DNA from: Verrucomicrobiota bacterium
Lineage (GTDB): Bacteria > Verrucomicrobiota > Verrucomicrobiia > Limisphaerales > UBA9464
Length of the DNA stretch: 64,000 nucleotides
Reading direction: 5' to 3'
Assembly: GCA_947471985.1 (NCBI GenBank)
Contig: CANIZL010000019.1
Span: 1 to 64,000, forward strand
Below the pieces are notes generated by a model that saw nothing but the letters and a program-made list of their open reading frames with translations, was not told the origin of the DNA and searched no databases. Both the position numbers and the translations under genes were made by a program. Of this stretch, positions 8,364 to 59,257 are shown piece after piece. Position 1 is the first letter of the stretch; every line of letters begins with the position of its first letter.

Positions 8364-8404
8364 AAAAATGAAATGCCCCGGACGCGAAGCACGCGCCCGG
8401 GGCA
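8364..8404 (-). terminator. Rho-independent terminator of the large repeat-protein gene
   Basis: On the minus strand, 18 bases past the stop at 8423, TGCCCCGG pairs with CCGGGGCA (8397-8404 with 8374-8381), continued by an inner CGCG/CGCG stem with a 5-base loop. It is followed by a T-rich stretch (TTTCATTTTT). Confidence 0.75.
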
Positions 8405-8422
8405 GGCACCACGGGAAACGAC

Positions 8423-12880: not shown

Positions 12881-13015
12881 GGTTGTTCTTCCTATCCCCG
12901 CATGGGAGGGACACGAAAATGCGGGAGCGAAGGGCACACGCATGCCACGACGGACGCAATTCTGGTCCAGACTTCAACGGGGAACGCCGCCAAGAATGCG
13001 CCCGCCCCCACGTGC

Positions 13016-13029
13016 TTGGCAATTGCCAA
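13016..13029. promoter_or_regulatory. 14-bp perfect palindrome in a divergent intergenic region
   Basis: TTGGCAATTGCCAA is a perfect palindrome located between the start of the large secreted-protein gene (12880, minus) and the halogenase-like gene (13131, plus). Position and symmetry suit an operator for a dimeric regulator of one or both genes. A few such palindromes are expected by chance in 64 kb, so this is tentative. Confidence 0.3.
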
Positions 13030-13130
13030 TTCCAAACTCAGCGAAAGCAACGCCGCCGTTCCCGCCCCGTGAATCGCCCCGGGGGATGGGGCTTGCCCTA
13101 CCGCGGCCAACGGCTGCACGCTGAGGCTTT

Positions 13131-14687: not shown

Positions 14688-14741
14688 CGGCGAACGCATT
14701 TCGCGTTTGACCAGCACAACCCGGGCGCTGGATTCTGGCCC

Positions 14742-16925
14742 ATGTCCGCCCGCACTACCGGTTTAACTACCGGTTTAATGAGAACGTCTTCCTGGTCCCT
14801 GGTGACCGTGATGCTGGGCTGTCTGCTCGCCGTGCGCAGCCTCGCCGCCCCGGACGTCAATTGGGGCAGTTATCTCGGGGACGCCGGCAGCAGTCATTAC
14901 TCGCCGCTGCGACAGATCACGCCCGGCAATGTGCCCAAGCTCCGCGTGGCGTGGACCTACCATGCCGGCGGGGCCAGCACCAACAATCGCACCCAGATCC
15001 AATGCAATCCCCTGGTCATCGACGGGGTGCTGTACGGCACGTCGCCGGATTTGCAGCTTTTTGCGTTGGACGCCGCGACGGGCCGGGAATTGTGGCGGTT
15101 TAATCCCAGCACCCTGAAGGGCTTTACCCGGTCGGGGGTAAACCGCGGACTGGTCCACTGGAGCGACGGCCGCGAGCGGCGCATTTTCTACGGCAACAAC
15201 CATTACCTGCACGCGCTGGATGCCCGCACCGGACAACTTATCCCATCCTTTGGCACCAACGGTTCCATCGATCTCAAATTGGATCTCGGCCGCGACGTCA
15301 CCGGGCTGGACCTGCAGGCGAACACGCCGGGGCGGATTTACCGAGACCGGCTGATCGTCGGGATGCGCGTCGGCGAAGGACCCGCTCCGGCCGCGCCGGG
15401 ACATATCCGCGCGTACGACGTCCGGTCCGGCCGGCTGATCTGGCGCTTCAACACGATTCCGCATCCGGGCGAACCCGGCTATGAAACCTGGCCGCCCAAC
15501 AGTCACACCTACATGGGAGGCGCCAATGTCTGGGCGGGATTCTCGCTCGACGAGGCGCGGGGATTGGTCTTCTGCCCCACCGGTTCCTCAGCGTTTGATT
15601 TCTGGGGCGGGAATCGCATCGGCCAAAACCTTTATGCCAACTGCCTGATCGCCCTGAACGCGGAGACGGGACAGCACGTCTGGCATCAACAGCTGGTGCG
15701 GCACGACCTGTGGGATCGCGACCTGCCGGCGCCGCCCAATCTGTTAACCGTCACCCACCAGGGCCGGCGCGTGGATGCCGTCGCGCAGGTGACGAAGTCC
15801 GGTCACGTCTTCACGTTCCATCGCGAGACGGGAGCGCCGCTGTTTCCGATCCGCGAAGTGCCCGTGCCACCCTCGGATCTTTCCGGTGAGTCCGCGTGGC
15901 CAACCCAGCCCATTCCGACCAAGCCGTCCCCCTTCGCGCGCCAGCTGTTCACCTACGATGAAATCACCGACATCTCGCCGGAGGCCCACCGGCAGGTGCT
16001 GGATCGCTTCGTCAAACTGCGCCCCCACGCCCTCTTTCTGCCGCCCAGCCGCGAAGGAACCATCATCCTGCCGGGCTTCGATGGCGGCGCGGAATGGGGC
16101 GGCGCCGCGGCCGATCCGCAGGGGATTCTCTACGTCAACGCCAACGACATGCCCTGGGTCTTAAACATGGTGGAGACCCGTCGCCCGGGCAGTGAACCGC
16201 AGTCGAGTGGCGCGGCCATCTATGGCCAGATCTGCGCCGCGTGCCATGGCTTGGACCGCTTGGGTAACCGCGCGCAAAACGTCCCGTCGCTGCTGGACAT
16301 CGCGCAGCGCCTGAAGCAGCCGGACATCCTGGCCCTGCTGAAGACCGGCAAAGGCGTGATGCCGGCGTTCGATTTCCTTAGTGAAGGTCAGCGCCGGGCC
16401 GTGGTAGGCTATTTGCTGGGATCCATTGGCGCCGCGGAAGCCGCCGCCACCGGAGACGGGCATCGGGAGGAGACCGTGGGGGCGGATGTCGTGGGCACGA
16501 TTCCCTATACCACGACTGGATACAATCGCTGGCTCGACACCAACGGCTATCCGGCCATCAAGCCGCCCTGGGGCACGCTCAATGCCATCGATCTCAACAC
16601 CGGAGAATACGTCTGGCGGGTGCCATTGGGCGAGCGTCCGGAGCTGACTGCCCGGGGAATACCGCTGACGGGCACGGAAAATTATGGGGGCCCCATCGTA
16701 ACCGCGGGAGGCTTGGTTTTCATCGCGGCCAGCCGCGACGAACAGTTCCGGGCGTTCGATCGAAAGTCGGGTCGCGAACTTTGGAAAGTCCCACTGCCCG
16801 CCGCCGGATATGCCACCCCGGCCACGTACTCCGTGAAGGGGCGGCAATACGTGGTCATCGCCTGCGGCGGCGGCAAGATCGGAACCAAGAGTGGTGATGC
16901 CTACGTCGCCTTCGCCCTGCCCTGA
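14742..16925 (+). CDS. PQQ-dependent dehydrogenase with internal cytochrome c domain
   Basis: A 727-residue secreted quinoprotein. After a signal peptide comes the family opening [19 protein letters not shown] and repeated propeller-blade motifs ([44 protein letters not shown]) forming an eight-bladed beta-propeller that holds pyrroloquinoline quinone. A cytochrome-c domain with CAACH (C497, C500, H501) is inserted before the last blades, so electrons could pass from PQQ to heme within one chain. The alcohol or sugar substrate is not predictable. The start is uncertain: ATG 14742 or ATG 14778; the second directly follows a 12-bp tandem doublet and still leaves a full signal peptide. It probably forms a unit with the upstream flavoprotein gene. 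Confidence 0.9.
14754..14777. repeat. 12-bp perfect tandem doublet
   Basis: ACTACCGGTTTA occurs twice without a gap at 14754-14765 and 14766-14777. It ends on the base before ATG 14778, the alternative start of the PQQ dehydrogenase. If that start is used, the doublet lies in the untranslated leader; otherwise it encodes TTGLTTGL in the n-region of the signal peptide. Confidence 0.6.
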
Positions 16926-16929
16926 CGCT

Positions 16930-17643
16930 GTGAAGGACACCTTACGGGGCGCACCCACCGGCTTCACCCTGATCGAGCTGCTGGTGGTGGTCGGTATCAT
17001 CGCCCTGCTGGCGGGACTCTTGCTCCCGGCGCTGGCCCGGGCTCAGGGCACCGCCCGGAAGTCGGCGTGCGTCAGCAATCTGCACCAGCTCGGGCTCGCC
17101 TGGCAGCTTTACCTCGACGATCACGCCGATCATTTTCCCGACCGGCGCGATTTGAAGTCCGCACTTCCCGGCGGTTACCAACCGTGGACCACCTGGCCCA
17201 AGAGTGATCCCCGCGCCGGTTGGGCGGCCGTGGTGCTGCAGACGATTCTGCCCACCCGCGGAATCTGGGAATGTCCGGCCGTTGCCACCGGTCCACTCGC
17301 CCGAATCGAGCAGGCCCATCAAGCCGCCGGAACCAACGCCGCCGCGCCTCGGGTCACCTACTGGATGTGGCGGTTTGATCGAACCGACGATCCCATTCCC
17401 GCCGACAATTTTTGGGGCCGGACGGTCAACGAAGCCATCCAACAACTCAGCACGGCCAACAATCCCACCGTGGGCACGCCCAACGGCCCGGCCGACGTGG
17501 AGTTGATCGTAGACCCGTATTTTCCCAATACCATCCCGTCACTCCCGGAAGAGATCCGCGGCTGGTCGGCGCATCTTGGGGGGCGCAACCGGTTGTTGTT
17601 GGATGGTCACGTGGAAAACCTCCGGGATTCGCGCACCCGGTAA
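16930..17643 (+). CDS. Prepilin-like protein (type II pseudopilin) with H-X9-DG motif
   Basis: Starting at GTG 16930, four bases after the PQQ dehydrogenase stop, this gives 237 residues. The N-terminus carries a type IV prepilin signal: [21 protein letters not shown], cleaved after the glycine by prepilin peptidase with methylation of the phenylalanine. The C-terminus has histidine, nine residues, then DG ([12 protein letters not shown]), the pre-pilin H-X9-DG pattern characteristic of verrucomicrobial and planctomycetal pseudopilins. No pilus or secretion-system genes are nearby, so it is one of the dispersed pseudopilins typical of these phyla. ATG 16891 would overlap the previous gene and add unlikely residues before the leader. 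Confidence 0.88.
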
Positions 17644-17669
17644 CTCCCGGCACCGCACGGATCACGGCT

Positions 17670-19091
17670 TCAGCCCGGTCGCGGTGGCGACGCCGACCCT
17701 TCGCTGGGCGGTGATGTCGCCGCGCGCCATTTGGCGAGACGTTCGGCGATCTTTTTCTCCGTCCCCTGATCCGTCGGCTCATAGTATCGTCGCCGAGCCC
17801 CCAGATAATCCTGGGCCACATGATGGCCCGCGTGGTCATGGGGATAAACATATCCGGTGCCGTGCCCGAGTTGCTTCGCCGCCAGATAATGGGCGTCCTT
17901 CAACGCCGACGGGACTTCTAGGGTACGGCCGTTGCGAACATCCTCCAGGGCGGCATCGATGGCCTTGTAGGCGGAATTGCTCTTGTTCGCCGTGGCCAGA
18001 TAGATCGTGGCTTCAGCGATGGGAATGCGGGCCTCCGGCCAGCCGATAAACTCCGCCGCCTGCGCCGCCGCCTGCGCCAGGATCAACGCCATGGGGTCGG
18101 CCAGACCGACATCCTCAGCCGCCAGAATCACCAACCGACGGGCAATGAACCGCGGATCCTCCCCGGCGTGAATCATCTTGGCCAGCCAGTACAGGGCCGC
18201 GTCCGGATCCGATCCCCGGGTCGATTTGATAAACGCACTGATGGTGTCGTAATGGGCGTCGCCATCGCCATCGTAGACGACGGCCTTCTTCTGGATGCAG
18301 GCCTCCGCCACGGCGAGGTCGATGACGATCCAACCGTCCGGCCCCGGCGGCGTGGTGAGCGCACCGATCTCGAGGGAATTGAGCGCCTTGCGACCGTCGC
18401 CATCGGAAACGCGCGACAGATGGGCCAACGCGGCGGGTTCCACCCGCAACCGCAAATGGCCCAGCCCCCGGTCGACATCGCTTAAGGCCCGCTGCAGCAA
18501 CCCGAGGAGGTCGGCTTCGCCCAGCGGTTTCAGCTCAAAAACCTGCGAGCGCGAGACCAGCGGGGAATTGACGAAGAAAAAGGGATTGTGGGTGGTGGCC
18601 CCGATCAGTTTGACCACACCGCTTTCCACGTCCGGCAGGAGGACATCCTGCTGGGCTTTGTTGAAACGGTGAATTTCGTCGATGAACAGAATCGTGGAAT
18701 GCCCGGTGTTCTGCAGCCGGTTGGTGGCGCCACTGAGCACGCGGCGCAGGTCGGCCACGTTGGATTCCACACCGTTGAGACGTTCGAAGCGCGCGCGGGT
18801 TTGGGCGGCGATGATCTGGGCGAGGGAGGTCTTGCCGGTGCCGGGCGGACCGTAGAAAAGCAGGGACTGGATGCGATCGGCCTCGATGGCCCGGCGCAGG
18901 AGCATGCCCGGGGCGAGGATGTGCGACTGTCCGGCGTATTCGTCGAGCGTGCGCGGGCGCATGCGCGCCGCCAGGGGCGCGGCAGAAGTGCCGAACGGCG
19001 CCGACGGGGCCTCGGACGCCGGGTCCGACGACGGCTCAGCAGCACCGGACGGGGGGCGTCCGGCGGGGGCAAAAAAATCGGCCTGCGCCAC
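17670..19091 (-). CDS. rarA: Replication-associated recombination protein A (AAA+ ATPase)
   Basis: A RarA/MgsA-type AAA+ ATPase acting at stalled replication forks. The Walker A motif is GPPGTGKTS, Walker B is ILFIDEIHRFNKAQQD, and the sensor region follows GATTHNP. The C-terminal oligomerisation domain has LYWLAKMIHAGEDPRFIARR and ends with YVYPHD and AQDYLG, as in E. coli RarA. The open frame continues far upstream; I place the start at GTG 19091 (VAQADFFAPAG), giving 473 residues against about 447 in E. coli, with a proline/alanine-rich N-terminal extension before RPRTLDEYAGQ. No clear ribosome-binding site decides this. The gene is divergent from clpC. Confidence 0.9.
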   Translation of the reverse strand: MAQADFFAPAGRPPSGAAEPSSDPASEAPSAPFGTSAAPLAARMRPRTLDEYAGQSHILAPGMLLRRAIEADRIQSLLFYGPPGTGKTSLAQIIAAQTRARFERLNGVESNVADLRRVLSGATNRLQNTGHSTILFIDEIHRFNKAQQDVLLPDVESGVVKLIGATTHNPFFFVNSPLVSRSQVFELKPLGEADLLGLLQRALSDVDRGLGHLRLRVEPAALAHLSRVSDGDGRKALNSLEIGALTTPPGPDGWIVIDLAVAEACIQKKAVVYDGDGDAHYDTISAFIKSTRGSDPDAALYWLAKMIHAGEDPRFIARRLVILAAEDVGLADPMALILAQAAAQAAEFIGWPEARIPIAEATIYLATANKSNSAYKAIDAALEDVRNGRTLEVPSALKDAHYLAAKQLGHGTGYVYPHDHAGHHVAQDYLGARRRYYEPTDQGTEKKIAERLAKWRAATSPPSEGSASPPRPG

Positions 19092-19606
19092 GGTGGGAGC
19101 ATCGGGAAGGGCTTGGCCGCGGAAAGAAAAACGGCGGCCGCAATCAGTGCCCGTAAGCACCGTCTGCGACCGCCGAAAGAGACCCCGCCAAAGCCGTGGG
19201 AGACAGGTCCCTTCTACCGAAGGAACCAGGTGGGAGCAGCGAGTGAAGCCCGCCTTCCTGTAATAGGTAGGCCTGGCGTTAATCACCACGCTTTGACGCC
19301 CCCGGGGTTGTAACAAGGTCGAAGGACGTTGCCTCGATACACGCACCCAGCAGGGAAAGTTTCCAAAGAGCGTCGGACCCGGGGCCCGACAAGCGCCAAG
19401 CAATCGACGACGGGCGGGAAAGCGCAAGCGAAAGCCACCGGGCACCGCGGTTTCGCGCAGCAATGCCAAGTGCGCCGGAACGTGCCAGGAGCGCCCGCTG
19501 TGACTGGCACGCCTATTTTATCGACGGGGGCGAAACAAGGTTGACGCCACAGAGCACCAGACAGAGGGTGCGATTGTCCGGCGCGAGTTCCGCGCCACTA
19601 TCAACC
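19092..19606. other. Gene-free divergent region between rarA and clpC
   Basis: About 515 bases with no convincing gene. It must contain the promoters of rarA and clpC, but I see no strong consensus -35/-10 pair. One imperfect hairpin stands out: CAGGTCCCTTC (19204-19214), loop TACC, GAAGGAACCAGG (19219-19230). I compared the stretch with the signatures of RNase P RNA, tmRNA, SRP RNA and 6S RNA and could not fit any. A CIRCE-type heat-shock operator (TTAGCACTC, spacer, GAGTGCTAA) is absent. Confidence 0.5.
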
Positions 19607-47801: not shown

Positions 47802-49952
47802 TCAACTCTTGGAAGTCTTGGCCGGCGGGGCGCCCTTTTCCGCCGCCTCCGCCGTGTGCTTGCGGTAGTGGGAGGCGTAGTACCGGTTCTGGTAATAGTG
47901 GTAGCTGTAGTAGTACGAATCCTTGCCCTCGAAATCGATGTCATTCAGCACCAGCCCCACCGGATGAATACCGGCGTCGTGAATGCGTTGGACGCTGCGC
48001 AGAGCGTGTTCCCGGCGGATCTTGTTGAACTTCGTCACGAACAGGAGCCCGTCGCACATCGCACCCACGACCAGCGGATCAGCGACCGCCGAGATCGGCG
48101 GGCAATCCAGCACCACCCGGTCATAGCGTTTCGAAACCTCCTCCAAAAACTGCACCATGCGCTTGGAGCTGATCAATTCGGACGGATTGCTCGGGATGGC
48201 GCCGCAGCAGACGACGTCGAGGCATGGCACGTCGGTGTTGTGGATGATTTCATCCACGGAATTCACCCGTTCCGCCAGATACGCCGCGAGTCCCACCGGG
48301 CTCTGCAACTCGAAGGCCTTGTGGACGGATGGGCGCCGAAGGTCCGCATCCACGAGCAGGGTCTTGAGTCCGGTTTGCGCGGTGACGATGGCAAAATTTG
48401 AGGCCACCAGCGATTTGCCCTCGGAGGGAATCGTGGAGGACACGGCGATGTTGCGGAGTTTGTCCGCATTGCGCGCCAGCGCCACGGAGGCGCGCAAGGT
48501 ACGAAAACCTTCCGCCGCACTTGAAGTGGGATGCAGGTGCGCCTGCAAGTCGCGCTCCACGACCGACGCCGACTTGATGTTGGGAATGTAGCCCAGGAAG
48601 GGCAGCCGGAGGTAATTCTCCACGTCCTCCTGGCTCTTCACCGAATCGTCCAGGTGATTCATCAGGAACGCGAGACCGATCGCCAGCGCCAGCCCACCCA
48701 GGACTCCCCCGGCGATAATCAGCGGCTTGCGCGGCTTGACCGGTTGCGTGCCCGAGACCGCAGGGTCGATGACGGTCATGTTTTGCAGGATGTCGTTCCG
48801 GGCGAGGTCGTACTCCTTGACCTTTTGCACGAGCAGTTTGTAAATGACTTCGGCGCGCTCTTTTTTCTGCGTATAGACGTCGTAATCGACCTTCAGACCG
48901 CTGAGCGTCTCCTTTTCCTTTTCGGCTGCCTGGAATTGTTCCATGGCGTGGGCGGTATTCTGCTTCTCGTTTTCCGCCCGCTGAATCAGTCCTTGGTAGA
49001 CTTTCTCGGCCTCTTTATCGAGAGCCTCGCGGAGGGAAGTAATCGCGCCCGACGCCTGAATGTATTTGGTGTGCTTGGGGCGGTAGCGATTCGTAATGGC
49101 CCCAAACAGGGAAAGTTGGGTGTTCAAATCCGACCGGATCCGGGCGATCTGAATGTCCTCGCGGATATCGGAGTATTCGGCAATGTCCTTGCCCTCCGCC
49201 CGATGACGTTGGGCACCCTCGGCGATCTTGCCGATCTGGTCGGATTTGCGGCGCTGCATGTCGTAAGCCTCGCGCGCCAGGATGAATGTCTTAGTCACCA
49301 CGTCCGAATTGTCTTCCAAGGAAGCCGCGCCCTGCTTGGCACGATAATCCGCCAGCCGCTTGAGCGCGCTGGACAGTTCCGTCTGCGCGGTTTCTTCCTC
49401 CTGCTTGACCATGCGAAATCCCTCGGCGGACTTCATGCGCTTGCGGTCGAGATTCTCCCCCAGAAAGATATTCACGAGGGTGTTGGCGATGTCCCGTGCC
49501 TTGTTCCGGTTCGGGTGGATAACATGAATCTTGATCAGACGGGTCTGCCGGACCGGTTCGATCGTAATGTCCTCACTCACCGCCTGCAGCCAGTCCTGCT
49601 CGACCTTGTATCGCTCGTCATCTTTGAGGGCCAACTTCTGGGCGACCCGCTCCAGCAACGAACGGCTGCGCAAATTCTGCTCCTGCGTCTTGAAGTATTC
49701 GATGTCCTTCTGCTGAAACGACATGCCGTCGCGCAGATTCAATACGCCCGCGGTTTCCGGATCGACCTGCAACACGGCCGTGGATTGAAAGATCGGCGTT
49801 GCCCGGTAGGCCCAGATCAGGGAGGCGAGGGCCGACAGGCAGAAGATCGAGATGATCAACCAACGCCGCTCCAGCATGACATGCCACGAAACGCGCAGGT
49901 GATTCTCCTCTGGTCGGGAAGTCGAGCCGGCGGACGAGAAGTTGTTATCCAT
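47802..49952 (-). CDS. Polysaccharide chain-length / BY-kinase protein (Wzc-like), module A
   Basis: A 716-residue inner-membrane protein fusing a Wzz domain to a bacterial tyrosine kinase. The first membrane helix is WLIISIFCLSALASLIWAYRA, then a long periplasmic coiled-coil region, a second helix (PLIIAGGVLGGLALAIGLAFL, near residue 410) and the kinase. Walker A is STIPSEGKSLVASN (near 505-518), Walker A' is TLLVDADLRRPSVH, and Walker B is VVLDCPPIS. The C-terminus is tyrosine-rich (DSYYYSYHYYQNRYYASHY), the site of autophosphorylation in this family. It controls length and export of an exopolysaccharide. It is the third gene of module A, 14 bases after the Wza-like gene. Confidence 0.93.
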   Translation of the reverse strand: MDNNFSSAGSTSRPEENHLRVSWHVMLERRWLIISIFCLSALASLIWAYRATPIFQSTAVLQVDPETAGVLNLRDGMSFQQKDIEYFKTQEQNLRSRSLLERVAQKLALKDDERYKVEQDWLQAVSEDITIEPVRQTRLIKIHVIHPNRNKARDIANTLVNIFLGENLDRKRMKSAEGFRMVKQEEETAQTELSSALKRLADYRAKQGAASLEDNSDVVTKTFILAREAYDMQRRKSDQIGKIAEGAQRHRAEGKDIAEYSDIREDIQIARIRSDLNTQLSLFGAITNRYRPKHTKYIQASGAITSLREALDKEAEKVYQGLIQRAENEKQNTAHAMEQFQAAEKEKETLSGLKVDYDVYTQKKERAEVIYKLLVQKVKEYDLARNDILQNMTVIDPAVSGTQPVKPRKPLIIAGGVLGGLALAIGLAFLMNHLDDSVKSQEDVENYLRLPFLGYIPNIKSASVVERDLQAHLHPTSSAAEGFRTLRASVALARNADKLRNIAVSSTIPSEGKSLVASNFAIVTAQTGLKTLLVDADLRRPSVHKAFELQSPVGLAAYLAERVNSVDEIIHNTDVPCLDVVCCGAIPSNPSELISSKRMVQFLEEVSKRYDRVVLDCPPISAVADPLVVGAMCDGLLFVTKFNKIRREHALRSVQRIHDAGIHPVGLVLNDIDFEGKDSYYYSYHYYQNRYYASHYRKHTAEAAEKGAPPAKTSKS

Positions 49953-49966
49953 GGGAGGCAGCGGAA

Positions 49967-50572
49967 TCAGAAGATGTTTTGCGGGACGGTGATGACATCG
50001 TCCGCCTCGACGTAAATCTGTTTGTCCGGATCCGTGATCCGGGCCAGCTCGTTCAGGTTGTAGGTGGTGACCACACCCTTCCGCGACAGTTGGACTTTTT
50101 TGCGATTGCCCCGCGGATTCACATCCCCAGCCGTGGAAACGGCTTCGATCAGGCTCAGTTTCCGGTCATTGGGCAGCCGCACCGTTCCGGCCTTGTAAAC
50201 GTAGCCGTTGACCGTCACCACCTTCTCCGCGTAGAGCACCACCACGCACGAGACTTGCGGGTTGATGATCCAATCTTTGTCGAGCCCGTCGCGGATCATT
50301 TTCTCGATCTCGCCGGTGCTCTTATCCTTCACATTCAACTCGCCCAGGTAGTTGAACGTGATCTTGCCGTCCGCATCGACCTTCTTTTCCACCTTCCCGA
50401 TGTCGGCCTCATCCACTTGAATGACCAAGGTATCCCCCGGCTGCACCTTCCGGGTCACCACGGCCGCGTCCTCCGCCGCCAGGGTCCCCGCACAACCCGT
50501 GACCAGCAGCAGCCCCACCCAGGCCCGCGCGAACTGACGCTGCGCGGCGCCGAAAAAGGAGATCCGTTTCAT
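49967..50572 (-). CDS. Polysaccharide export protein (Wza-like, short), module A
   Basis: A 201-residue export protein. The signal region ends VGLLLVTGCAG, a possible lipobox with cysteine about residue 28, though cleavage after LAA is also possible. The Poly_export domain begins VQPGDTLVIQVDEADIG, followed by an SLBB-type domain (VTVNGYVYKAGTVRLPNDRKLSL, short form GYVYKAGTVRLPNDRKLSLI, then EAVSTAGDVNPRGNRKKV). It is shorter than E. coli Wza and lacks the C-terminal outer-membrane helix, so the adjacent barrel protein may supply the pore (inference). Six bases follow the barrel gene stop. Confidence 0.9.
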   Translation of the reverse strand: MKRISFFGAAQRQFARAWVGLLLVTGCAGTLAAEDAAVVTRKVQPGDTLVIQVDEADIGKVEKKVDADGKITFNYLGELNVKDKSTGEIEKMIRDGLDKDWIINPQVSCVVVLYAEKVVTVNGYVYKAGTVRLPNDRKLSLIEAVSTAGDVNPRGNRKKVQLSRKGVVTTYNLNELARITDPDKQIYVEADDVITVPQNIF

Positions 50573-50578
50573 AAACAG

Positions 50579-51889
50579 TCAGAAGCCTAGCGAAAGATTC
50601 AGAAAAACGCGATTCGCTTGATAACCGGTCAGGCTCCGGAGGGCAAGCAAGGGATTGGCGAAATTCACGTGGTAGTACTCAAAGGCGTATCCCATTGAGG
50701 CCGTCACCCACGGCCGCGGTTGGTAATGCAGGGCCAATTCGGCGGTGGAGAAGTCATCCGTCCGAGCCGTGCTGGGCCGACCCGTCAGGGCGGTATTGTT
50801 GTAGTCGGCCAACTGGTACGACGTCGTCCCTTTCACCAGCCATCGCCCGGATTCATCCAGAGTGTGCGAGGCGATCAGGGAGACGGCGTCCGAGGTCACG
50901 TTCTGGCCGCCCAAATTTAGCGACGGGGACGTCCGCCGGCTGTACTGCAACTGCATCGCCGTTGCCTCCGTGAATTGAAAACGCAGGTCCAAGTCGAAGG
51001 CCGGAATCAGAATACCCGAGCGACCCTGCTCAAAGAAATCCCGATTCTCCACACCCACCTTGGCGGTCCCGGAAAAACGGGTGGTGAACTCGCCGCGAGC
51101 CCCCACGAACGTCCCGTAGGTGGCGGAAGCCACCCCGCGGGGCTGGTTGAGCTGATTGGCCGAAACCCCCGACTGCCCGTAGAAGACCTCACTAAAGAGA
51201 TTGATGCGATCGGTAGCGGAATAGTTGCCCCCAATGGCCCCGCGGAGCGTGTTGTAGTCGTACAACGCCACGTCCTTGGCCCAATCCGTCTGGTAATGGG
51301 AGAAATCCGCGTACAATTGCGTCCGATCCGTCCAGCCGTAGGTCGTCCGCAGCGTCCCCGACCAGACATCCCGCCGCCGGGGGGCGAAGTTGATCGTACC
51401 GCCCTGACCGATCACGCCCCCCAGGAACCCGGAGAGTTGTTCGTAGTTTTCGGTGGGCTCGAAAGTCAGCCGCGAGGTACTGAACAAGCCATTGGCTTTG
51501 AGATGGTTCTGCCGGTAATTGAACGCCGAATTGTCGAGAAAAACGATCTCATCGTGGGTCGCCTCCACCGCCGCCCGGTTACCTTGGGAGTCGCCGCGCA
51601 GGATCCGCAATCCCGGGGCGAAAGTGCTCTGCAGGTCGGCAACCTTGGCGGTCGATTGGCTGTAGGTCAGATTATCGGTAAACGCCTCCGAGACATCCAA
51701 TTGCGGATGGAAGGTGAAGCCCCCGAAGTCGTGGGAGAGGAAATCCTCAAAATCCGCCGCTTCCGCGCCCAGAAACGCCACCGCTCCGACGGCCGCTGTG
51801 CGCACCCATCGGGCCAGCGCCCCGGTTCCTCCCGGCGCGCATTCCTCCCCGGCATCAACCGACCGCGGCCGGCACGTTAAACTGAACAT
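50579..51889 (-). CDS. Outer-membrane beta-barrel protein, module A
   Basis: A 436-residue protein with a signal peptide (VRTAAVGAVAFLGAEA) after an unusually long n-region, so the start may be later than ATG 51889. The mature sequence alternates short hydrophobic strands with turns (LDVSEAFTDNLTYSQS, TLRTTYGWTDRTQLYADFSHYQ, SIGLG-type repeats) and ends with a strand finishing in phenylalanine (RVFLNLSLGF), the usual barrel-assembly signal. It resembles the outer-membrane proteins found with exopolysaccharide loci of exosortase-bearing bacteria. First gene of module A. Confidence 0.85.
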   Translation of the reverse strand: MFSLTCRPRSVDAGEECAPGGTGALARWVRTAAVGAVAFLGAEAADFEDFLSHDFGGFTFHPQLDVSEAFTDNLTYSQSTAKVADLQSTFAPGLRILRGDSQGNRAAVEATHDEIVFLDNSAFNYRQNHLKANGLFSTSRLTFEPTENYEQLSGFLGGVIGQGGTINFAPRRRDVWSGTLRTTYGWTDRTQLYADFSHYQTDWAKDVALYDYNTLRGAIGGNYSATDRINLFSEVFYGQSGVSANQLNQPRGVASATYGTFVGARGEFTTRFSGTAKVGVENRDFFEQGRSGILIPAFDLDLRFQFTEATAMQLQYSRRTSPSLNLGGQNVTSDAVSLIASHTLDESGRWLVKGTTSYQLADYNNTALTGRPSTARTDDFSTAELALHYQPRPWVTASMGYAFEYYHVNFANPLLALRSLTGYQANRVFLNLSLGF

Positions 51890-52067
51890 CGGATCGTAGA
51901 TTCGGGAACGGGGTCCCCGTGTAAAACAGATTCACCGCCGTTTCTCATTCCGGCGAGGTCGTGACCCTTTCCTCGGATTCCGCGGGAGCGGCAAACGTTC
52001 AATCACCGGAGGGATTTCCTCAAACTTCCCCCTCGTCCCCGCCCGGATTCCTGACTCATTCCGGCCC

Positions 52068-52748
52068 GTGACTGCCGCTGTTATTGTCGCCGCCGGCCGG
52101 GGTACCCGCATGGGTCCCGACGTGGATAAACTTTTCCTGGAAGTCGCCGGTGCACCCGTCGTCGCCCACACCTGGAAGCGTTTTGACGCCGCGGGCTTTG
52201 ACGAGATTATCCTGGTGGTCCGCGAGGGACTGCAGGAAGCCTTTACCACCTTGGCTGCCAGTCTGGCACTTCAAACACCGTGGCGGCTGGTCCCGGGCGG
52301 TCGCGAGCGACAGGATTCGGTTTGGAACGGGCTCTCGGCCGTTCGCCCGGAAACCCAATGGGTCGCCATCCAGGACGGTGCCCGCCCCTGCACGTCCCTC
52401 GAAATCATCCGCAACTGTCGGGCCGCCGCGGAACGTACGGGCGCCAGCGTGGCCGCCCAACCCGCCGTCGACACCATGAAGGAGTCCGCGGACGGACGCT
52501 GTATTTCCCGTCATCTGGATCGAACCAAACTTTGGGCCGTCCAAACCCCGCAGTGCTTTCGTCTCGAGGTCATTCGCCAGGCACTCACCGTGGTCCGTCA
52601 GCGCGGACTGAATGTCACCGACGACACCACCGCCTGCGACTACATCGGCCAGGCAGTCGAATTGGTCCCCGGATCCGCGCCCAATCCCAAGGTGACGTCC
52701 CCGACGGATTTGCCGTGGATCGATTATCTCCTGCGCTCCCAAGCCTGA
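52068..52748 (+). CDS. ispD: 2-C-methyl-D-erythritol 4-phosphate cytidylyltransferase
   Basis: A 226-residue enzyme of the non-mevalonate isoprenoid pathway; it adds CMP to methylerythritol phosphate. The start is GTG 52068. Landmarks are IVAAGRGTRMGPDVDKLFLEV (short form VAAGRGTRMG...K), GGRERQDSVWNGL, IQDGARPCTS, PAVDTMKE, LWAVQTPQCFRLE and the final DDTTACD and VPGSAPNPKVTSPTDL. All expected substrate-binding residues appear present. ispF, often adjacent or fused, is not seen. Confidence 0.96.
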   Translation: MTAAVIVAAGRGTRMGPDVDKLFLEVAGAPVVAHTWKRFDAAGFDEIILVVREGLQEAFTTLAASLALQTPWRLVPGGRERQDSVWNGLSAVRPETQWVAIQDGARPCTSLEIIRNCRAAAERTGASVAAQPAVDTMKESADGRCISRHLDRTKLWAVQTPQCFRLEVIRQALTVVRQRGLNVTDDTTACDYIGQAVELVPGSAPNPKVTSPTDLPWIDYLLRSQA

Positions 52749-52801
52749 CGAAACGCGGTAGGCGGCGGAAGAAAAGGGACGAAGGGGAATGGAACGGTGG
52801 A

Positions 52802-52878
52802 TGGTCGGGACGACAGGATTCGAACCTGCGACGTCTTGGTCCCAAACCAAGTGCTCTACCGGGCTGAGCTACGTCCCG
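52802..52878 (-). tRNA. tRNA-Pro (anticodon TGG)
   Basis: Read on the minus strand, the acceptor stem CGGGACG pairs with CGTCCCG. The D-arm is GCTCAGCCCGGTAGAGC, the anticodon arm CTTGG-TTTGGGA-CCAAG gives anticodon TGG, and the T-arm CGCAGGTTCGAATCCTGTC (GCAGG...CCTGT) is standard. Discriminator A and CCA are encoded (52805-52802). Total 77 bases. Confidence 0.97.
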
Positions 52879-53033
52879 CACCTCGCGCAGTGTCCCGGCT
52901 GCCGTGGGGAGCAGCAAACGGAATTTTGGGGAAAACCCGGCCATCCTACCCGACCGCGGCCCGTGCCTCCGCTCGGCCGACTGGCGCACGGCCCATCCTT
53001 GCCTCGGCTCCCCCGGTGCCTGATGTCTTGGCG

Positions 53034-53675
53034 ATGACACGTCGCTGCCTTCTGATCACCGCGTTCGCCGCTCTCTGCCTGGCCGGATGCGCCAGCACCA
53101 AATACGCCGTGCTCGAGAAATTCGGCATCCCCAAGCGCGAACTTTTCAAAAAGTACGTCGTCGCCGCTCGCGACGAACAAAAGGCCGCCGGACAACAGTT
53201 TCAGGACGCCCTGTCCCGGCTGAAAACCGTCTACGGATTCAGCGGCGGAAAACTGGAGTCCGCCTACGATGCCTTGAAGTCGGACTACGATCGATCCAAC
53301 GCCCGGGCCACCACGGTGAAGAGTCGCATTCGCGATGTGGAATCGGTTTCGAGCGCCCTCTTCACGGAGTGGGAACAGGAAATTCAACAGATCACCACCG
53401 CCACCCTCGCCGCGGATAGCCGGAGTAAACTGGCCGACACCCGCGCCCGTTACGAATCCATGCACGCCGCCTTGGTGCGCGCCGAACAGGGGATGGATCC
53501 GGTGCTGGCCAAACTCAAAGACAACGTTCTGTACCTGAAGCACAACCTGAACACCCAGGCCATTGCCTCCTTGAAGGGCGAAGCCACCAACATCCAGGGC
53601 GAGATCGGCCGGTTGATCGACGAGATGAATGCGTCCATCCGCAAGGCGGATGAGTTCATCAAAACGCTCCAGTGA
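53034..53675 (+). CDS. DUF2959 family lipoprotein
   Basis: A 213-residue lipoprotein. ATG 53034 gives a signal peptide with lipobox L-A-G-C (cysteine about residue 19). The mature part is helical with coiled-coil character: KFGIPKRELFKKYVVAARDEQKAA (short form FGIPKRELFKKYV), VYGFSGGKLESAYDALKSDYD and LKDNVLYLKHNLNTQAIASLKGE (DNVLYLKHNLNTQAIASLKG), all features of DUF2959. Function is unknown. It starts about 155 bases beyond the tRNA-Pro gene, on the opposite strand to it. Confidence 0.9.
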   Translation: MTRRCLLITAFAALCLAGCASTKYAVLEKFGIPKRELFKKYVVAARDEQKAAGQQFQDALSRLKTVYGFSGGKLESAYDALKSDYDRSNARATTVKSRIRDVESVSSALFTEWEQEIQQITTATLAADSRSKLADTRARYESMHAALVRAEQGMDPVLAKLKDNVLYLKHNLNTQAIASLKGEATNIQGEIGRLIDEMNASIRKADEFIKTLQ

Positions 53676-53814
53676 CCCGCACGCCCCCCCGCCAGTCCGC
53701 GCGCCGGAGCTTGACCCCGACCCTCTCACGCTCCTATCTCCCCGCTAATAAGCCTGCCGGACCACACGGGGACTCCGTCCAATCCCGCAGCATTCATCGT
53801 CGCCGTCCCAATCC

Positions 53815-54546
53815 ATGAACGCCCACCAGACCCGGTCCACCAACCCACCTTCGCTCCGTCGGTTTAGTTACATCGGGGCGGCAGTCGTGACCGCGCTACT
53901 GCTCTCCGCCTGTCAGAATCCTGGCGGGTCCGGCAAATCCACCGGCACACAGGACCTGTTCACCGGCAAAGCGGACCAACTCAAGGATTGGCGGGGCTTC
54001 GGCAAAGCGGAATTCCCGCTCCAAGGCTGGGTGGTGGAGAACGGCTGGCTGCGACACGTCGCCAAGGGCGGGGGTGGCGATGTGATCACGCGGGAGAAGT
54101 TCACTGATTTTGATCTGCGGTTTGAGTGGCGCATCGGCACCGCCGCCAACAGTGGCGTGAAGTACTGGATCGACGAAGCCCGAGGCTCCGCCGTGGGGCA
54201 TGAGTACCAGGTGATTGATGACGCCGCCCATCCGGACGCACTCAAGGGCCCGAAGCGACAGACCGCCGCACTCTACGATGCCCTGGCGGCGGTGAACCCC
54301 GCGATACGCCCGGCCGGGGCGATCAATCAATCCCGAATTATCGTCCAGGGGCAACATGTCGAGCACTGGCTGAACGGACGGCGGGTTTTATCCTATGACT
54401 TGGGCAGCCCGGAACTCGTCGCCGCCAAGGCGCAAAGCAAGTTCAGTCGCGAAGCCCACTGGGGCACCCAATTCCCCACCCCCATCCTGCTGCAGGATCA
54501 CGGCGATGATGTCTGGTTCCGCAACATCGTGATTCGAAAGCTATGA
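53815..54546 (+). CDS. DUF1080 (3-keto-disaccharide hydrolase-like) lipoprotein, second copy
   Basis: A 243-residue lipoprotein with lipobox L-S-A-C (cysteine about residue 33). The DUF1080 domain includes LFTGKADQLKDWRGFG, WVVENGWLRHVAKGGGGDVITRE (short form VVENGWLRHVAKGGGGDVIT), FDLRFEWRIGTAANSGVKYW and GHEYQVIDDAAHPDAL, and ends WFRNIVIRKL. These are closer to the main DUF1080 family than the copy at 35846-36580. It probably acts on glycosides in the periplasm. It is convergent with the FHA gene. Confidence 0.92.
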   Translation: MNAHQTRSTNPPSLRRFSYIGAAVVTALLLSACQNPGGSGKSTGTQDLFTGKADQLKDWRGFGKAEFPLQGWVVENGWLRHVAKGGGGDVITREKFTDFDLRFEWRIGTAANSGVKYWIDEARGSAVGHEYQVIDDAAHPDALKGPKRQTAALYDALAAVNPAIRPAGAINQSRIIVQGQHVEHWLNGRRVLSYDLGSPELVAAKAQSKFSREAHWGTQFPTPILLQDHGDDVWFRNIVIRKL

Positions 54547-54584
54547 GTCGGAATCAACCCGGCCTCCATCCCTAGAATCGCCCG

Positions 54585-54602
54585 GCCAGCCCTCTGGCTG
54601 GC
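54585..54602. terminator. Possible hairpin between convergent genes
   Basis: A perfect 7-bp stem, GCCAGCC (54585-54591) with GGCTGGC (54596-54602), loop CTCT, lies between the DUF1080 stop (54546) and the FHA gene stop (54667). No T-run is present on either strand. Confidence 0.35.
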
Positions 54603-54666
54603 TTCCGGAACGCCGCTGGAGGACCACCGCGGCTCCCCCCAACCAGGATCCCCAACCAGGATCCAC

Positions 54667-55056
54667 TCAGCGCCCGATGCTGAGAAGTATTGTAACGGCC
54701 AGAACCAGCATGGCCGCGATCAGCAGCCAGACGCCGAGTTCCCGCAGCACAAGCGAGCGTTGCGGCGCGCTTCGCAGCGTGAACAGGAGCTTCACCGAAC
54801 CAATCCCCACCACATCCCCGTTGCGCAGGCGATGTTCCGACACGGGCTCCTGATTCACCGTTACGAGAGCCTGACCGAGACCGCGGAGATCAAACCAGCC
54901 GGCAGGATTGAGCTGAATCTCGGCATGAAGATCCCACACGCCGGAATCCGGCAAGGAGATCTCGAGATCCCCTCGCCGCCCCAAACGAACCGGGGCGGCG
55001 TCCGATTGGAAGCGCCGCCCCGGAGTGCGATCGTTGAGGACGATCAGTTCAATCAT
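54667..55056 (-). CDS. FHA-domain protein with C-terminal membrane helix, module B
   Basis: A 129-residue protein. The FHA fold is indicated by VRLGRRGDLEISLPDSGVWDLHAEIQ (short form VRLGRRGDLEISLPD, then HAEIQ), VTVNQEPVSEHRLRNGDVVGIGSVKLLF (VNQEPVSEHRLRNGDVVGIG). One C-terminal membrane helix follows (VWLLIAAMLVLAVTILLSI). FHA domains usually bind phosphothreonine. The gene starts within the stop of the Wza-like gene (TAATG), so it is part of exopolysaccharide module B, which also contains a tyrosine kinase. The serine in the usual phospho-binding GR-x-x-D..S..H pattern is not obvious, so binding may differ. Confidence 0.85.
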   Translation of the reverse strand: MIELIVLNDRTPGRRFQSDAAPVRLGRRGDLEISLPDSGVWDLHAEIQLNPAGWFDLRGLGQALVTVNQEPVSEHRLRNGDVVGIGSVKLLFTLRSAPQRSLVLRELGVWLLIAAMLVLAVTILLSIGR

Positions 55057-55676
55057 TAAAAAATCGAGCGCTCCACCTGAATGCTATCACCCGGATAAAT
55101 CGCGATATCCTCCTTCGGATCCTTCACGGCCTTCTTCCAATTCACGTAAACCACCGTCCCGTCTCCCCGGGTGACTTGGATCTTGGTCTTCTTCGCGTAT
55201 TCCGTAAATCCACCGGCCATGTTAATCGCCTTGACCAGGGTCAGTTTCGCCGAATGGGCATAGGTGCTGGGACTGCGCACCTCGCCACCCACCGAAATCG
55301 TGCGCACCGGAACATCGATGACGATTCCAATGTTCTTGTAGAGACCCTTGTTGATGTAGAGGTCCTTGATTTCCTTCTCCAACTGGGTCTTGGTCTTGCC
55401 GACGAACTCCACCTCAAGGTTCAGGTGGAGCGTGATTTTTTTGGTCTCCGGAATCTGCTGTTCCGTAGGCGGGATGATGACGGGAGTGTCCGAATAGGTA
55501 ATCCGGACCTTGTCGCCCACACTGAGATATTCCGTACCCACCGCCTTGGCGGCATCATTGTCGCCCGTCGGCTTGCGCTTGTCCGCCGCGAAGCCGGTGG
55601 ATAGGGACGCACCGAGGGACACCAGCAACAAGGTGCGGATCCAGAGGACTTGAAACCAACGTGGACTTACTTTCAT
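55056..55676 (-). CDS. Polysaccharide export protein (Wza-like, short), module B
   Basis: A 206-residue export protein. I use ATG 55676 (MKVSPRWFQVLW); GTG 55694 would add six residues. The signal peptide is LLLVSLGASLSTGFAA, with no lipobox. The Poly_export domain begins YLSVGDKVRITYSDTPVIIPP (short form LSVGDKVRITYSD), includes LNLEVEFVGKTKTQLEKEI, and is followed by an SLBB-type part (ISVGGEVRSPSTYAHSAKLTL, short form VGGEVRSPSTYAHS, then INMAGGFTEYAKKTKIQV). It ends IYPGDSIQVERSIF. Shorter than E. coli Wza, like its counterpart in module A. It lies 34 bases after the kinase gene. Confidence 0.9.
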   Translation of the reverse strand: MKVSPRWFQVLWIRTLLLVSLGASLSTGFAADKRKPTGDNDAAKAVGTEYLSVGDKVRITYSDTPVIIPPTEQQIPETKKITLHLNLEVEFVGKTKTQLEKEIKDLYINKGLYKNIGIVIDVPVRTISVGGEVRSPSTYAHSAKLTLVKAINMAGGFTEYAKKTKIQVTRGDGTVVYVNWKKAVKDPKEDIAIYPGDSIQVERSIF

Positions 55677-55710
55677 GACGATTGCTTGGAACACCGAAGA
55701 CTGCCGGGAT

Positions 55711-57924
55711 TCAATATTTCTTCTTCAATTCGACACTGGCCTTCCCGGAGGAGTCTTTGTCCTTCGCAGGTTTGTCGGAATCAGACTCGCTGTCCTTGCT
55801 CTTCGAATAGTAATCGTAGTAGTAACCGCTGTAGTAGTAGTAGTAGCTGTCCTGCGAGATGTTGATGTTGTTCAACACCACACCCAGCAAGCGGTCCTTG
55901 CCACCGATCTTCTCGACCATCTGCTTGGCACGCAGGGTCATCTGCTGCGGGTACTTGCGGTACTGGACGACGAGAATCGCCATATCGACTTCGGCTGCCA
56001 AAATGGAAGCATCGCTGACACCCATGATGGGCGGTGAGTCAAAGAAGACGAAGTCATAGCGACTGCGCACCTCCTGCACGAACTCCCGCATGGCCGCGGA
56101 ATTCAGCACGCCGACGGAACTGCTGGGCAGTTTGCCGGACGGAAGGAAATCGAGCCCCGGAACTGGCGTGGTCTGAACTACTTCCTCCATCTTGTTCTGC
56201 CGGAGGAGATAATTCGTCAACCCCATGGCATTGGAGACGCCGAGGATCTTGTGCAGGCTGGGACGGCGCAAATCCGAGTCAACGATCAGCACCCGCGCGC
56301 CGTTCTGTGCAAAGACGGTCGCCAAATTGAAGATCGTGGTCGACTTGCCTTCACCGGCACCGCCGGAGACGACGGTCATCGTACGAGCACCGGGGTCCTT
56401 GCGGGAGAAGAGAATGTTCGTCCGCAAAACCCGATAGGCTTCCGCATGTGGACTGTCGGGGCCCTCCTTGAAGAGGGCCGTAACGTTCTGCGGGATAACC
56501 CCGAGCACCGCCGTACCCAACGCCTGCTCGACGTCATCGATGGTCTTAACGCTGGTGTCGAGGTACTCGATGAAGAAGGCCAGACCCACACCCAGCAGCA
56601 GACCGAAGACGCAACCCAAGGCGACATTGATCTTCTTGCTGGGTTTGACCGGACGCATACCGGGAATCGCGCGGTCCGTCACGAAAACGGCCCGCGAGGA
56701 ACCCATTTTGGCGCCCACTTCTTCCTGCATGATCTGCATCTGGAGCAGATCGCGCATACGTTCCCGGTTTGCGAGATCGCGCTGCGCGACCACAAACGGC
56801 TGGTACTTGTTGACCTCTTTGGACTGCTTCTCGCGAAGCTCGGCAATATTCTGCTCGGTGGTTTTAATCACGCTGGATTCCTCCTCCACCCGCGACTTCA
56901 AAGCCTTCATGTTCGCCGCCACCTCGCGATTGATTTGCTCGTTGAGCTTGGCGAGGGCGATCACCACCTTCTTGACGTCCGGATGCTCCGGGCCGTAATC
57001 CGGATTCAGCGTGCTGCGTCGCAACTCTGCCCCATTGAACTGGCTGTTTAAAGTGGCCAGTTCCTGGTAACTTCCCGGGCTGGCCGCAACCAGCCGCTGA
57101 GGAAGCTCTTCACTCGGGGTATCGATCAAACCCTGCACCATCGTCGACAGGCGCGTATACGCTTGCTTCGTGGTGCTCAATTCCTGTTCTAGCCGGCCAA
57201 TTTGCGCCGCCGCCACGGTCTGCACCGGGAACATCGCCGTGTTCGCCGAGTCCATGGGAATGCCCAGCTTGATGCGGAGCTGATCCAAGTTGGTTTGCGC
57301 GGCCCCCACGTCGGCCTGCATTTCCTTCAACTGCGACTTCAGGGTATCCAGACCGCTCCGTTCCTTCTGCTCACGAAACTGGGCGCGATAATCCTTATAA
57401 ACGGTGGCAATGCGATTGGCGATATCGGCCGCCAGGGCCTTGTCACTGTCCAAAACCGTCAAACTGACCAACTGGGTGTTGCGATCCGAAACCGCCTCGA
57501 CGTTGGCGTTGAGGATGTCAAAGGCGACCTCCACGGTGAGCTCCGGCACCCGTTCACGCCGCGCATAGACATCATTGAGCTTCAACTGCTTGATGACCGC
57601 CTCAAGGATCTCCCGCGACTTCATCAACGCAATCTGCGTGTTGAAGAAGATGATGTCGTTGTCGCCCCCGCTCTGGCGCATGACATCGAGATCGAACAAG
57701 TCCTTTTGAACGATCATGCGGACCGTGCTGGAATACCGCGGCGTCAGGGCGAACGTCACCGCCGTCACCACGGTTACCACGAGCAGAAAGACCGCGAGGA
57801 TGATCAGCTTCCGGATGCGGATAATCCGCCAATAGTCCAGAAAGTGCAGCTTCTGCTCGCCCGACGTCGCGCCCGGAGCCGCCGGAGCCACCGGCAACGC
57901 CGTGGCAGGTCTCATGTAATCCAT
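55711..57924 (-). CDS. Polysaccharide chain-length / BY-kinase protein (Wzc-like), module B
   Basis: A 737-residue inner-membrane protein with the Wzz-kinase arrangement. The first membrane helix is LIILAVFLLVVTVVTAVTFAL (about 40-60), then a long coiled-coil periplasmic region, a second helix (INVALGCVFGLLLGVGLAFFI, near residue 440) and the kinase with Walker A SGGAGEGKSTT (near 520), Walker A' LIVDSDLRRPSLH and Walker B FVFFDSPPIMG. The tail is very rich in tyrosine (DSYYYYYSGYYYDYY), followed by a lysine/serine/aspartate segment ending KKKY. Its Walker A is closer to consensus than that of module A. A terminator-like hairpin ends seven bases before its ATG. Confidence 0.93.
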   Translation of the reverse strand: MDYMRPATALPVAPAAPGATSGEQKLHFLDYWRIIRIRKLIILAVFLLVVTVVTAVTFALTPRYSSTVRMIVQKDLFDLDVMRQSGGDNDIIFFNTQIALMKSREILEAVIKQLKLNDVYARRERVPELTVEVAFDILNANVEAVSDRNTQLVSLTVLDSDKALAADIANRIATVYKDYRAQFREQKERSGLDTLKSQLKEMQADVGAAQTNLDQLRIKLGIPMDSANTAMFPVQTVAAAQIGRLEQELSTTKQAYTRLSTMVQGLIDTPSEELPQRLVAASPGSYQELATLNSQFNGAELRRSTLNPDYGPEHPDVKKVVIALAKLNEQINREVAANMKALKSRVEEESSVIKTTEQNIAELREKQSKEVNKYQPFVVAQRDLANRERMRDLLQMQIMQEEVGAKMGSSRAVFVTDRAIPGMRPVKPSKKINVALGCVFGLLLGVGLAFFIEYLDTSVKTIDDVEQALGTAVLGVIPQNVTALFKEGPDSPHAEAYRVLRTNILFSRKDPGARTMTVVSGGAGEGKSTTIFNLATVFAQNGARVLIVDSDLRRPSLHKILGVSNAMGLTNYLLRQNKMEEVVQTTPVPGLDFLPSGKLPSSSVGVLNSAAMREFVQEVRSRYDFVFFDSPPIMGVSDASILAAEVDMAILVVQYRKYPQQMTLRAKQMVEKIGGKDRLLGVVLNNINISQDSYYYYYSGYYYDYYSKSKDSESDSDKPAKDKDSSGKASVELKKKY

Positions 57925-57931
57925 AGGTGAG

Positions 57932-57964
57932 AAAAAAAAGAGGCAGGAAAAGGTTTCCGGCCTC
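57932..57964 (-). terminator. Terminator-like hairpin directly before the module B kinase gene
   Basis: On the minus strand GAGGCCGGAAA pairs with TTTCCTGCCTC (10 of 11 positions, 57964-57940), loop CCT, followed at once by eight T (57939-57932). Seven bases later the kinase gene starts. It lies after the barrel gene stop (58013) on the same strand. It looks like a full intrinsic terminator, so the kinase gene needs read-through, attenuation or its own promoter. Confidence 0.8.
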
Positions 57965-58012
57965 CTTCACTAAAAAATGACCAAGTCAGGGCAAACTGGC
58001 AAGCTGCAAAAC

Positions 58013-59257
58013 TCAGTAAGTCAAACGAACGCCGAAGTAGACCCGGTTCCGCTCAAAGTCACGACCATGACCGTTGAAGGCGGGAATGAAGACACCGCCA
58101 CTGCTGCGGGCATCATCATAATAGTACGCCAGCTCGGTGCTGAGGTACTGGTTGAACTTGTAGCTGACCACCGCCCCCAGCAGGAGGTACTTGTCGGTGC
58201 TGATGTTCGAAGCGGCACCGTTGTACTTCAGGTCACCAAATTGGTAACGCGCATTCAGCGTACCGCGGAGGCGAGGAGTGAAAGCGTGCGAAAGCGCCGC
58301 GTAGAAGGAAGTCGCTTCGGAATCGACGATGTCCACCGCCGTGCCCATGTAGGCATCCGTGGCTTCCCGGCCGTGGTGGATACCACCCTGAACAAAGCTG
58401 CCCGGGTTGTAGTTCCAAGTGAGGCTCGCATCGGCGTACGGGCTGGTCTCATCCTTGACCCCGGCCGCATCCCAGCTGCTCAATTCAACACCACCACGCA
58501 CCGACGCCTGGATCGTACCGGTGAACGAGTGATCCACCGAGGCGTAAACGCGGTGGGTCTTCATGTCGCGGTCCACGAAGGCGAACGGCTTGTAATCCCG
58601 GATCTCGTAGTTGTAACCAAACCCGAGCACCGTCTTCGGCGTAAACTGGTAGTTGAAGCGGACACCGGGGATGTGCTCCATCCGGTTCAGCGGGGTCGCG
58701 TAGCTCGTGTCCGCGTAGTCGTAGTAGTTGTTCTGGTACGACAGGCCGGTCGACCACAGGTGCGACAGCTGGGCTTCGAAATCCACACCCGCATGGTTGC
58801 GGATGTTATTGCCTTCGGCGCGGCCGAGCGTCGAGATGGCATTGACACTTTGTTCGGGCTCCTGCGCCACCACGAACCGCTCGTAGGTGCTGATCTTGTA
58901 CCGCGGACTGAAAACGTGGCTCAGGTCCGCCTCAAAATTGTGCGACTGATCGATGTCGCGATTGCTGGCACCGTTCGGATCACGGTCCGCGTAGTACTTC
59001 ATCCCGTAGGTGTATCCCAAGCCAATCTTGGTCTGCTCCAGCGGGAAGGTCAGTTGGATTCCCGGGGTGACTTCAACGCCCGGACTTGAGAATTTCCGGC
59101 CCGAGCCCTTGGGCGCGGTGTAAATGTTGTCGTCGTAAAAGCCGCGGATGCCGGCTGTGAGGGTGTACCACTTGCCAGCTCCCTCGGCGAGAGTCGGTGT
59201 CGAGAGGATGGCGGCGCTGACTGACGCCAGGCCAGCGGCTTGCAGGATCTTCTTCAT
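58013..59257 (-). CDS. Outer-membrane beta-barrel protein, module B
   Basis: A 414-residue protein starting at ATG 59257 (GAGGT about 13 bases upstream), with a signal peptide (KILQAAGLASVSAAILSTPTLA). The mature part is rich in alternating strands and tyrosines: YTLTAGIRGFYDDNIYTAP, TKIGLGYTYGMKYYADRD, FNYQFTPKTVLGFGYNYEIRDY (short form KTVLGFGYNYEIRDY) and LGAVVSYKFNQYLSTELAYYYDD (YKFNQYLSTELAYYYDD), and it ends RVYFGVRLTY, a typical barrel C-terminus. It probably forms the outer-membrane part of the module B polysaccharide exporter. It differs clearly in sequence from the module A barrel. Confidence 0.88.
   Translation of the reverse strand: MKKILQAAGLASVSAAILSTPTLAEGAGKWYTLTAGIRGFYDDNIYTAPKGSGRKFSSPGVEVTPGIQLTFPLEQTKIGLGYTYGMKYYADRDPNGASNRDIDQSHNFEADLSHVFSPRYKISTYERFVVAQEPEQSVNAISTLGRAEGNNIRNHAGVDFEAQLSHLWSTGLSYQNNYYDYADTSYATPLNRMEHIPGVRFNYQFTPKTVLGFGYNYEIRDYKPFAFVDRDMKTHRVYASVDHSFTGTIQASVRGGVELSSWDAAGVKDETSPYADASLTWNYNPGSFVQGGIHHGREATDAYMGTAVDIVDSEATSFYAALSHAFTPRLRGTLNARYQFGDLKYNGAASNISTDKYLLLGAVVSYKFNQYLSTELAYYYDDARSSGGVFIPAFNGHGRDFERNRVYFGVRLTY

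Follow-up and report, generated by a model that had tools for sequence, protein, structure and literature searches.

The 64,000-nucleotide stretch analysed here (the window) carries two polysaccharide export modules, A and B, and we consider it likely that each forms the envelope-spanning part of a separate composite OPX/β-barrel exporter. Module B would work with a polymer made by a synthesis cluster on another contig (C23), module A would be a self-standing cassette, and an FHA-like membrane protein would serve module B as an adaptor. Barrel-mediated export itself was already published in 2022, and most of the finding is explained by published work. What is new is the apparent split of module B from its synthesis genes in this lineage, the location of those genes on C23, and the contrast with module A, which is always free-standing.

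Gene content of the two modules

The window lies on contig C19 of a 6.38-Mb genome in 180 contigs, with a reported contamination of 0.74%. Both modules are on the minus strand (Table 1), module A being transcribed in the order barrel, OPX, kinase and module B in the order barrel, kinase, OPX, FHA-like gene. The seven genes, with their strand, coordinates and orders, are as an earlier note on this DNA had described them, and Pfam and NCBIfam matches back each name that it gave.

Table 1. Genes of modules A and B and features between them.
Feature	Position	Strand	Length	Matches and remarks
Module A PCP-2/BY-kinase (Wzz, GNVR, AAA_31/CbiA kinase)	47802-49952	-	716 aa	TIGR01007, E 8.8e-48
Module A short OPX (Poly_export, one SLBB)	49967-50572	-	201 aa	PF02563, E 2.9e-13
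Module A barrel, predicted outer-membrane β-barrel (BBP2_2)	50579-51889	-	436 aa	PF10082, E 1.5e-7
tRNA-Pro (tgg)	52802-52878	-		between modules
3-keto-disaccharide hydrolase gene	53815-54546	+		Pfam; convergent with FHA-like gene
FHA-like domain with C-terminal membrane helix (module B)	54667-55056	-	129 aa	PF00498, E 9.6e-8; TM 109-127
Module B short OPX (Poly_export, SLBB)	55056-55694	-	212 aa	Poly_export PF02563, E 1.3e-5; SLBB, E 1.2e-11
Module B PCP-2/BY-kinase (Wzz, GNVR, AAA_31/CbiA kinase)	55711-57924	-	737 aa	TIGR01007, E 3.6e-50
Module B barrel, predicted outer-membrane β-barrel (BBP2_2)	58013-59257	-	414 aa	PF10082, E 4.8e-14

Each barrel protein begins with a signal-peptide-like stretch and ends in Phe (A) or Tyr (B); for barrel B, a GTG at 59311 is a possible alternative to the ATG start at 59257. 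In both modules the PCP has the make-up of a BY-kinase of the PCP-2a type, with a Wzz domain, a P-loop kinase domain and a C-terminal tyrosine cluster (9 Tyr among the last 45 residues in A, 11 in B), and the closest solved structure to the module A kinase by sequence is Wzc (7nhr, E 1.7e-49). The nearest solved structures of both OPX proteins are likewise OPX proteins, Wza included (2j58, E 3.3e-6 for OPX A in a PDB sequence search). OPX A carries a lipobox-like VTGC motif. The weakest domain match is that of OPX B to Poly_export, at 25.7 bits against a family cut-off of 28; its SLBB match is clear (44.7 bits).

Fit to the composite OPX/β-barrel translocon

A composite D1D2-OPX/β-barrel translocon, in which a periplasmic OPX ring lies between a Wzc-type PCP and a barrel pore, was proposed in 2022 (Schwabe 2022; PMC9601211), with EpsY/EpsX, ExoA/ExoB and WzaB/WzpB of Myxococcus xanthus and VpsN/VpsM of Vibrio cholerae as members. 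A Class 3 OPX, with Poly_export and SLBB domains only, no Wza_C or GfcC and a barrel partner, has also been described (Saidi 2022; PMC9603273). We took the marks of the translocon to be an OPX no longer than 280 aa that has a Poly_export (PES) domain, a barrel gene at most 5 genes away and a polysaccharide gene such as that of a PCP at most 5 genes away. Its other traits are an OPX without a C-terminal helix across the outer membrane, a barrel of 18 strands, and binding between OPX and barrel that stabilises both. The two OPX proteins have 201 and 212 residues, the BBP2_2 barrel gene adjoins the OPX gene in A and lies two genes off in B (and is kept in relatives), and each module encodes a kinase-bearing PCP. 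The C-terminal pore helix Wza_C, which marks Wza as a Class 1 OPX, is missing from both: they end directly after the SLBB domain (TVPQNIF in A, QVERSIF in B), and neither has a transmembrane or strongly amphipathic helix in its last 45 residues. This bears out the earlier description of two Wza-like proteins of about 200 residues lacking that helix.

The barrels were examined by several routes. A rough count of strand peaks gave 18 stronger amphipathic ones both in barrel A (alignment of 19 sequences) and in barrel B (17 sequences). A two-sequence AlphaFold model of barrel B, of low confidence (pLDDT 42), is an all-β meander of about 18 strands, and when this weak model was used in a fold search it returned general outer-membrane barrels at TM-scores below 0.25, too low for use. 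The single-sequence model of barrel A (pLDDT 31) is structurally meaningless, and a PDB sequence search with both barrels gave no significant match.

In both PCPs the periplasmic part, between the predicted transmembrane helices, comprises about 360-375 residues, a length similar to that of the corresponding part of E. coli Wzc. Judged by this length, the extended PCP with periplasmic helices proposed for Myxococcus is not evident in either module.

By gene content, then, both modules fit the composite translocon; OPX ring formation, OPX-barrel contact and polymer transport are what we infer. In such a machine the Wzc-type inner-membrane protein would set chain length, and cycles of tyrosine phosphorylation on it would open and close the assembly. 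The short periplasmic OPX ring would take the chain from the Wzc-type protein and pass it to the linked outer-membrane β-barrel, which would be the exit pore. The earlier suggestion that a linked barrel may replace the missing helix is thus right in outline, each OPX having a co-conserved barrel, and had already been published (PMC9601211, PMC9603273).

Other OPX genes and the question of a shared pore

Six OPX genes were found in the genome: those of modules A and B, one on C92, one on C89 and two on C26. The C92 protein (209 aa) is encoded with a PCP, a barrel match and glycosyltransferases. On C89 (L037, 7287-11842, minus strand) lies a third cassette in the module A order, with a 226-aa OPX, a 751-aa PCP kinase and a 528-aa protein that ends in NLGYRF, has no Pfam match and is probably a barrel; one glycosyltransferase gene is found nearby on the opposite strand. 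The C26 genes (L036, 12847-15018) are adjacent and encode two long but different OPX proteins (353 and 366 aa), each with two SLBB domains.

The C26 pair bears on a quite improbable alternative, in which the barrels have an accessory role in the outer membrane, as Wzi-like surface anchors or porins, and helix-forming OPX proteins from C26 supply the pore for both kinases. The earlier note had named as contrary to its view a full Wza encoded elsewhere and serving both kinases, and candidates of this kind do exist: besides their length and double SLBB, both C26 proteins have a predicted C-terminal amphipathic stretch that could be a pore helix. Barrel B, for its part, has a weak Pfam match to Wzi, below the cut-off. 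However, the locus around the C26 pair is a complete one that encodes a flippase, glycosyltransferases and a PCP of its own, and throughout the order modules A and B have each retained linked OPX and barrel genes of their own. Published short OPX/barrel pairs, moreover, act as a single translocon (PMC9601211).

Conservation and relationship of the modules

We compared 20 relatives' loci for each module, 40 in all, using gene calls and tblastn. The order barrel-OPX-kinase is unbroken in all 20 module A loci, the barrel being syntenic throughout, although in one (L148) the barrel, at 20% identity, was found only by the gene-based search. Module B retains barrel-kinase-OPX wherever the contig extends, one contig (L115) stopping inside the kinase gene. 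The FHA-like gene stands beside it in 18 of the 20; in the other two (L115, L119) its place is taken by a gap of its own size, about 0.4 kb. Since these exact gene orders recur in relatives, the arrangement is far above chance. Relatives of OPX B were present in 74 of the 78 genomes searched, and a contig search with OPX B as query brought up just one further locus.

The two modules do not travel together. Neither was found within the flanks of the other in the 40 sampled loci, where the cross-matches trace to the kinase and OPX paralogues that the module itself contains. In nearly all relatives the two OPX genes are on separate contigs, and in G022, where they share a contig, they are about 36 kb apart. 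Because the modules are not adjacent in relatives, their closeness in the window is peculiar to this genome, and they do not form a conserved unit.

The modules also differ in sequence: BLAST finds no alignment between barrels A and B (E 0.55), and the two OPX proteins are 26% identical. We accordingly rejected a local duplication of one module, given this divergence of barrels and OPX proteins and the lack of neighbouring modules in relatives. On the evidence of sequence and gene order, modules A and B are separate ancient cassettes.

As had been noted earlier, the stretch between the modules is free of glycosyltransferase, polymerase and flippase genes; it holds an IspD-like gene, the tRNA-Pro gene, a gene for a small predicted secreted protein and the 3-keto-disaccharide hydrolase gene. 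An orthologue of the hydrolase gene is found next to module B in two relatives and close to module A in one.

Module B and the C23 synthesis cluster

In relatives, module B is often found with synthesis genes. Among 93 neighbouring proteins, 21 match the glycosyltransferase group 1 model and 7 match an MsbA-type ABC transporter model. Two GT4 genes adjoin the OPX/FHA end of the module, pointing towards it, in 11 of 20 loci, and in two of these 20, from two g6 genomes, a Wzy-like polymerase gene and another GT1 gene follow the pair. In the window, the site of this glycosyltransferase pair is occupied by the 3-keto-disaccharide hydrolase gene.

This genome's best matches to the GT4 pair are adjacent on contig C23 (29677-31886, 50-67% identity). 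A genome-wide search with the first of the two, the one checked, had one hit, at E 2.9e-143, with nothing further at E<=1e-20. The C23 cluster consists of GT2, GT1, Wzy-like and two GT4 genes, the matching Wzy-like and GT1 genes being directly upstream of the GT4 pair, and there is no OPX gene on C23.

The module B kinase tree places genus g7, with seven of eight members linked to the pair, as sister of the window (support 96/92), and the linked genus g6 outside both. The window's row has a long branch, which suggests that its place is less certain than the support values. From this position between linked g7 and g6 it follows that linkage of module B to the glycosyltransferases was probably ancestral, predating the window lineage, and was lost here. 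The simplest reading is that it was also lost in G013, and probably in G010.

It is rather unlikely, by our assessment, that module B was never tied to the C23 genes, that g6 and g7 gained the GT4 pair independently and that the window's module B serves another polymer. The pair is indeed missing from the fetched flanks of nine of the 20 module B relatives that were sampled, and the more distant relatives in the kinase tree are all without it. Yet g6 and g7 have the same two genes in the same order and convergent orientation, directly at the OPX/FHA end, the window lineage branches between them, and a C23-type polymerase and GT1 also stand at module B in the two g6 genomes.

An assembly artefact, with the window or C23 mis-joined or derived from another genome in the bin, would be conceivable in an assembly of so many contigs; we regard it as very improbable, given the low reported contamination and the position of both loci well inside their contigs. 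Beyond the OPX/FHA end of module B the contig runs on for more than 54 kb, and the C23 genes are found at 24-32 kb of a 65-kb contig. Module B most likely exports the polymer of the C23 cluster, from which it would have been parted by rearrangement in this lineage, a pairing that rests on the lost linkage. The tRNA-Pro gene is possibly a site of rearrangement or recombination.

In seven relatives the gene that precedes the module B barrel encodes an MsbA-type ABC transporter (for example L114, 2948-4657); none adjoins the module in the window. This transporter is possibly a flippase for lipid-linked sugars.

Module A and its polymer source

The surroundings of module A are different. No glycosyltransferase is among the 25 commonest families of its 95 neighbouring proteins, and none recurs as a neighbour in the 20 loci. 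The earlier view that export is separated from synthesis is therefore true here for both modules, but not as one shared property, being the rule among relatives for A and apparently a secondary, lineage-specific split for B. Lone export cassettes have precedent: a survey left 287 short-OPX systems unassigned in which the nearest polysaccharide gene is that of a PCP (Wzz/Wzc-type chain-length protein), so that such an arrangement is common (PMC9601211).

The earlier note had proposed a search for synthesis loci lacking their own exporters. Synthesis-type clusters with no OPX gene on the contig are present on C6, C23 and C44. C6 has two PGTs, glycosyltransferases and a Wzy-like gene, with an exosortase set further along; C44 has three GT1 genes, Wzy and a weak Wzx. 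We read module A as a self-standing export cassette with an unlinked polymer source, for which C6 and C44 are left as candidates solely by exclusion.

Contig C6 has neither an OPX nor a PCP gene. At 5591-19487 (L030), a PGT, two GT1 and a Wzy-like gene are mixed with genes for a haem-NO-binding protein, large hybrid histidine kinases and a sigma-54 activator, and this is possibly a nitric-oxide-controlled polysaccharide locus. At about 75.5-82.2 kb (L032/L033), an exosortase with DUF3485 (EpsI-like) is encoded with a PGT, an epimerase, a methyltransferase and a glycosyltransferase.

The FHA-like protein of module B

In an alignment of 20 members of the FHA-like family, Trp or Ala takes the place of the canonical SxxH Ser in all 20, GR is mostly kept and NG is not conserved. 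With the phosphate-contacting Ser gone and NG not kept, we rejected a role as a classical phosphothreonine reader, and phosphothreonine binding is unlikely from these sequences. The protein is a fixed part of module B and probably an inner-membrane adaptor between proteins. A text search of the literature available here for papers treating the FHA domain jointly with exopolysaccharide, tyrosine kinase and polysaccharide export found none, and of all the observations the constant association of this gene with module B has the least explanation. A speculative and rather doubtful extension is that module B is a four-part variant of the translocon, in which the FHA-like protein docks on the cytoplasmic kinase domain or its tyrosine tail and couples export to the synthesis complex. 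Were this so, an exporter parted from its synthesis genes would still find its own polymer.

Comparison with known systems

From a verrucomicrobial order that has been little studied, the modules add well-conserved examples of an export mechanism described only recently, and indicate that comparison of relatives can match an orphan exporter with an orphan synthesis cluster. Module B with C23, together with the free-standing module A, would allow a direct test of how an unlinked exporter recognises its polymer.

The XrtA/PEP-CTERM export set (TIGR03016 barrel, TIGR03027 OPX, TIGR03007 PCP) has the same parts and matches weakly, every score being far under the curated cut-off. Membership was rejected on scores of 46 bits against a cut-off of 180 for the OPX and 25 against 91 for barrel B, and with no exosortase adjoining the modules; the exosortases of the genome are on C71, C93, C6 and C30 only. 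The Wza-Wzc system of the E. coli group 1 capsule has a homologous OPX and BY-kinase, but E. coli Wza has further domains and a pore helix and does not need a barrel as pore. The Myxococcus and Vibrio composite translocons share with both modules a short OPX lacking the pore helix, a linked barrel, a linked PCP and synthesis genes that often do not adjoin, whereas both PCPs here have a fused kinase domain and module B adds the FHA-like membrane protein. Compared with Class 3 OPX proteins, we detected no difference: the Poly_export and SLBB make-up and the pairing with a barrel are the same.
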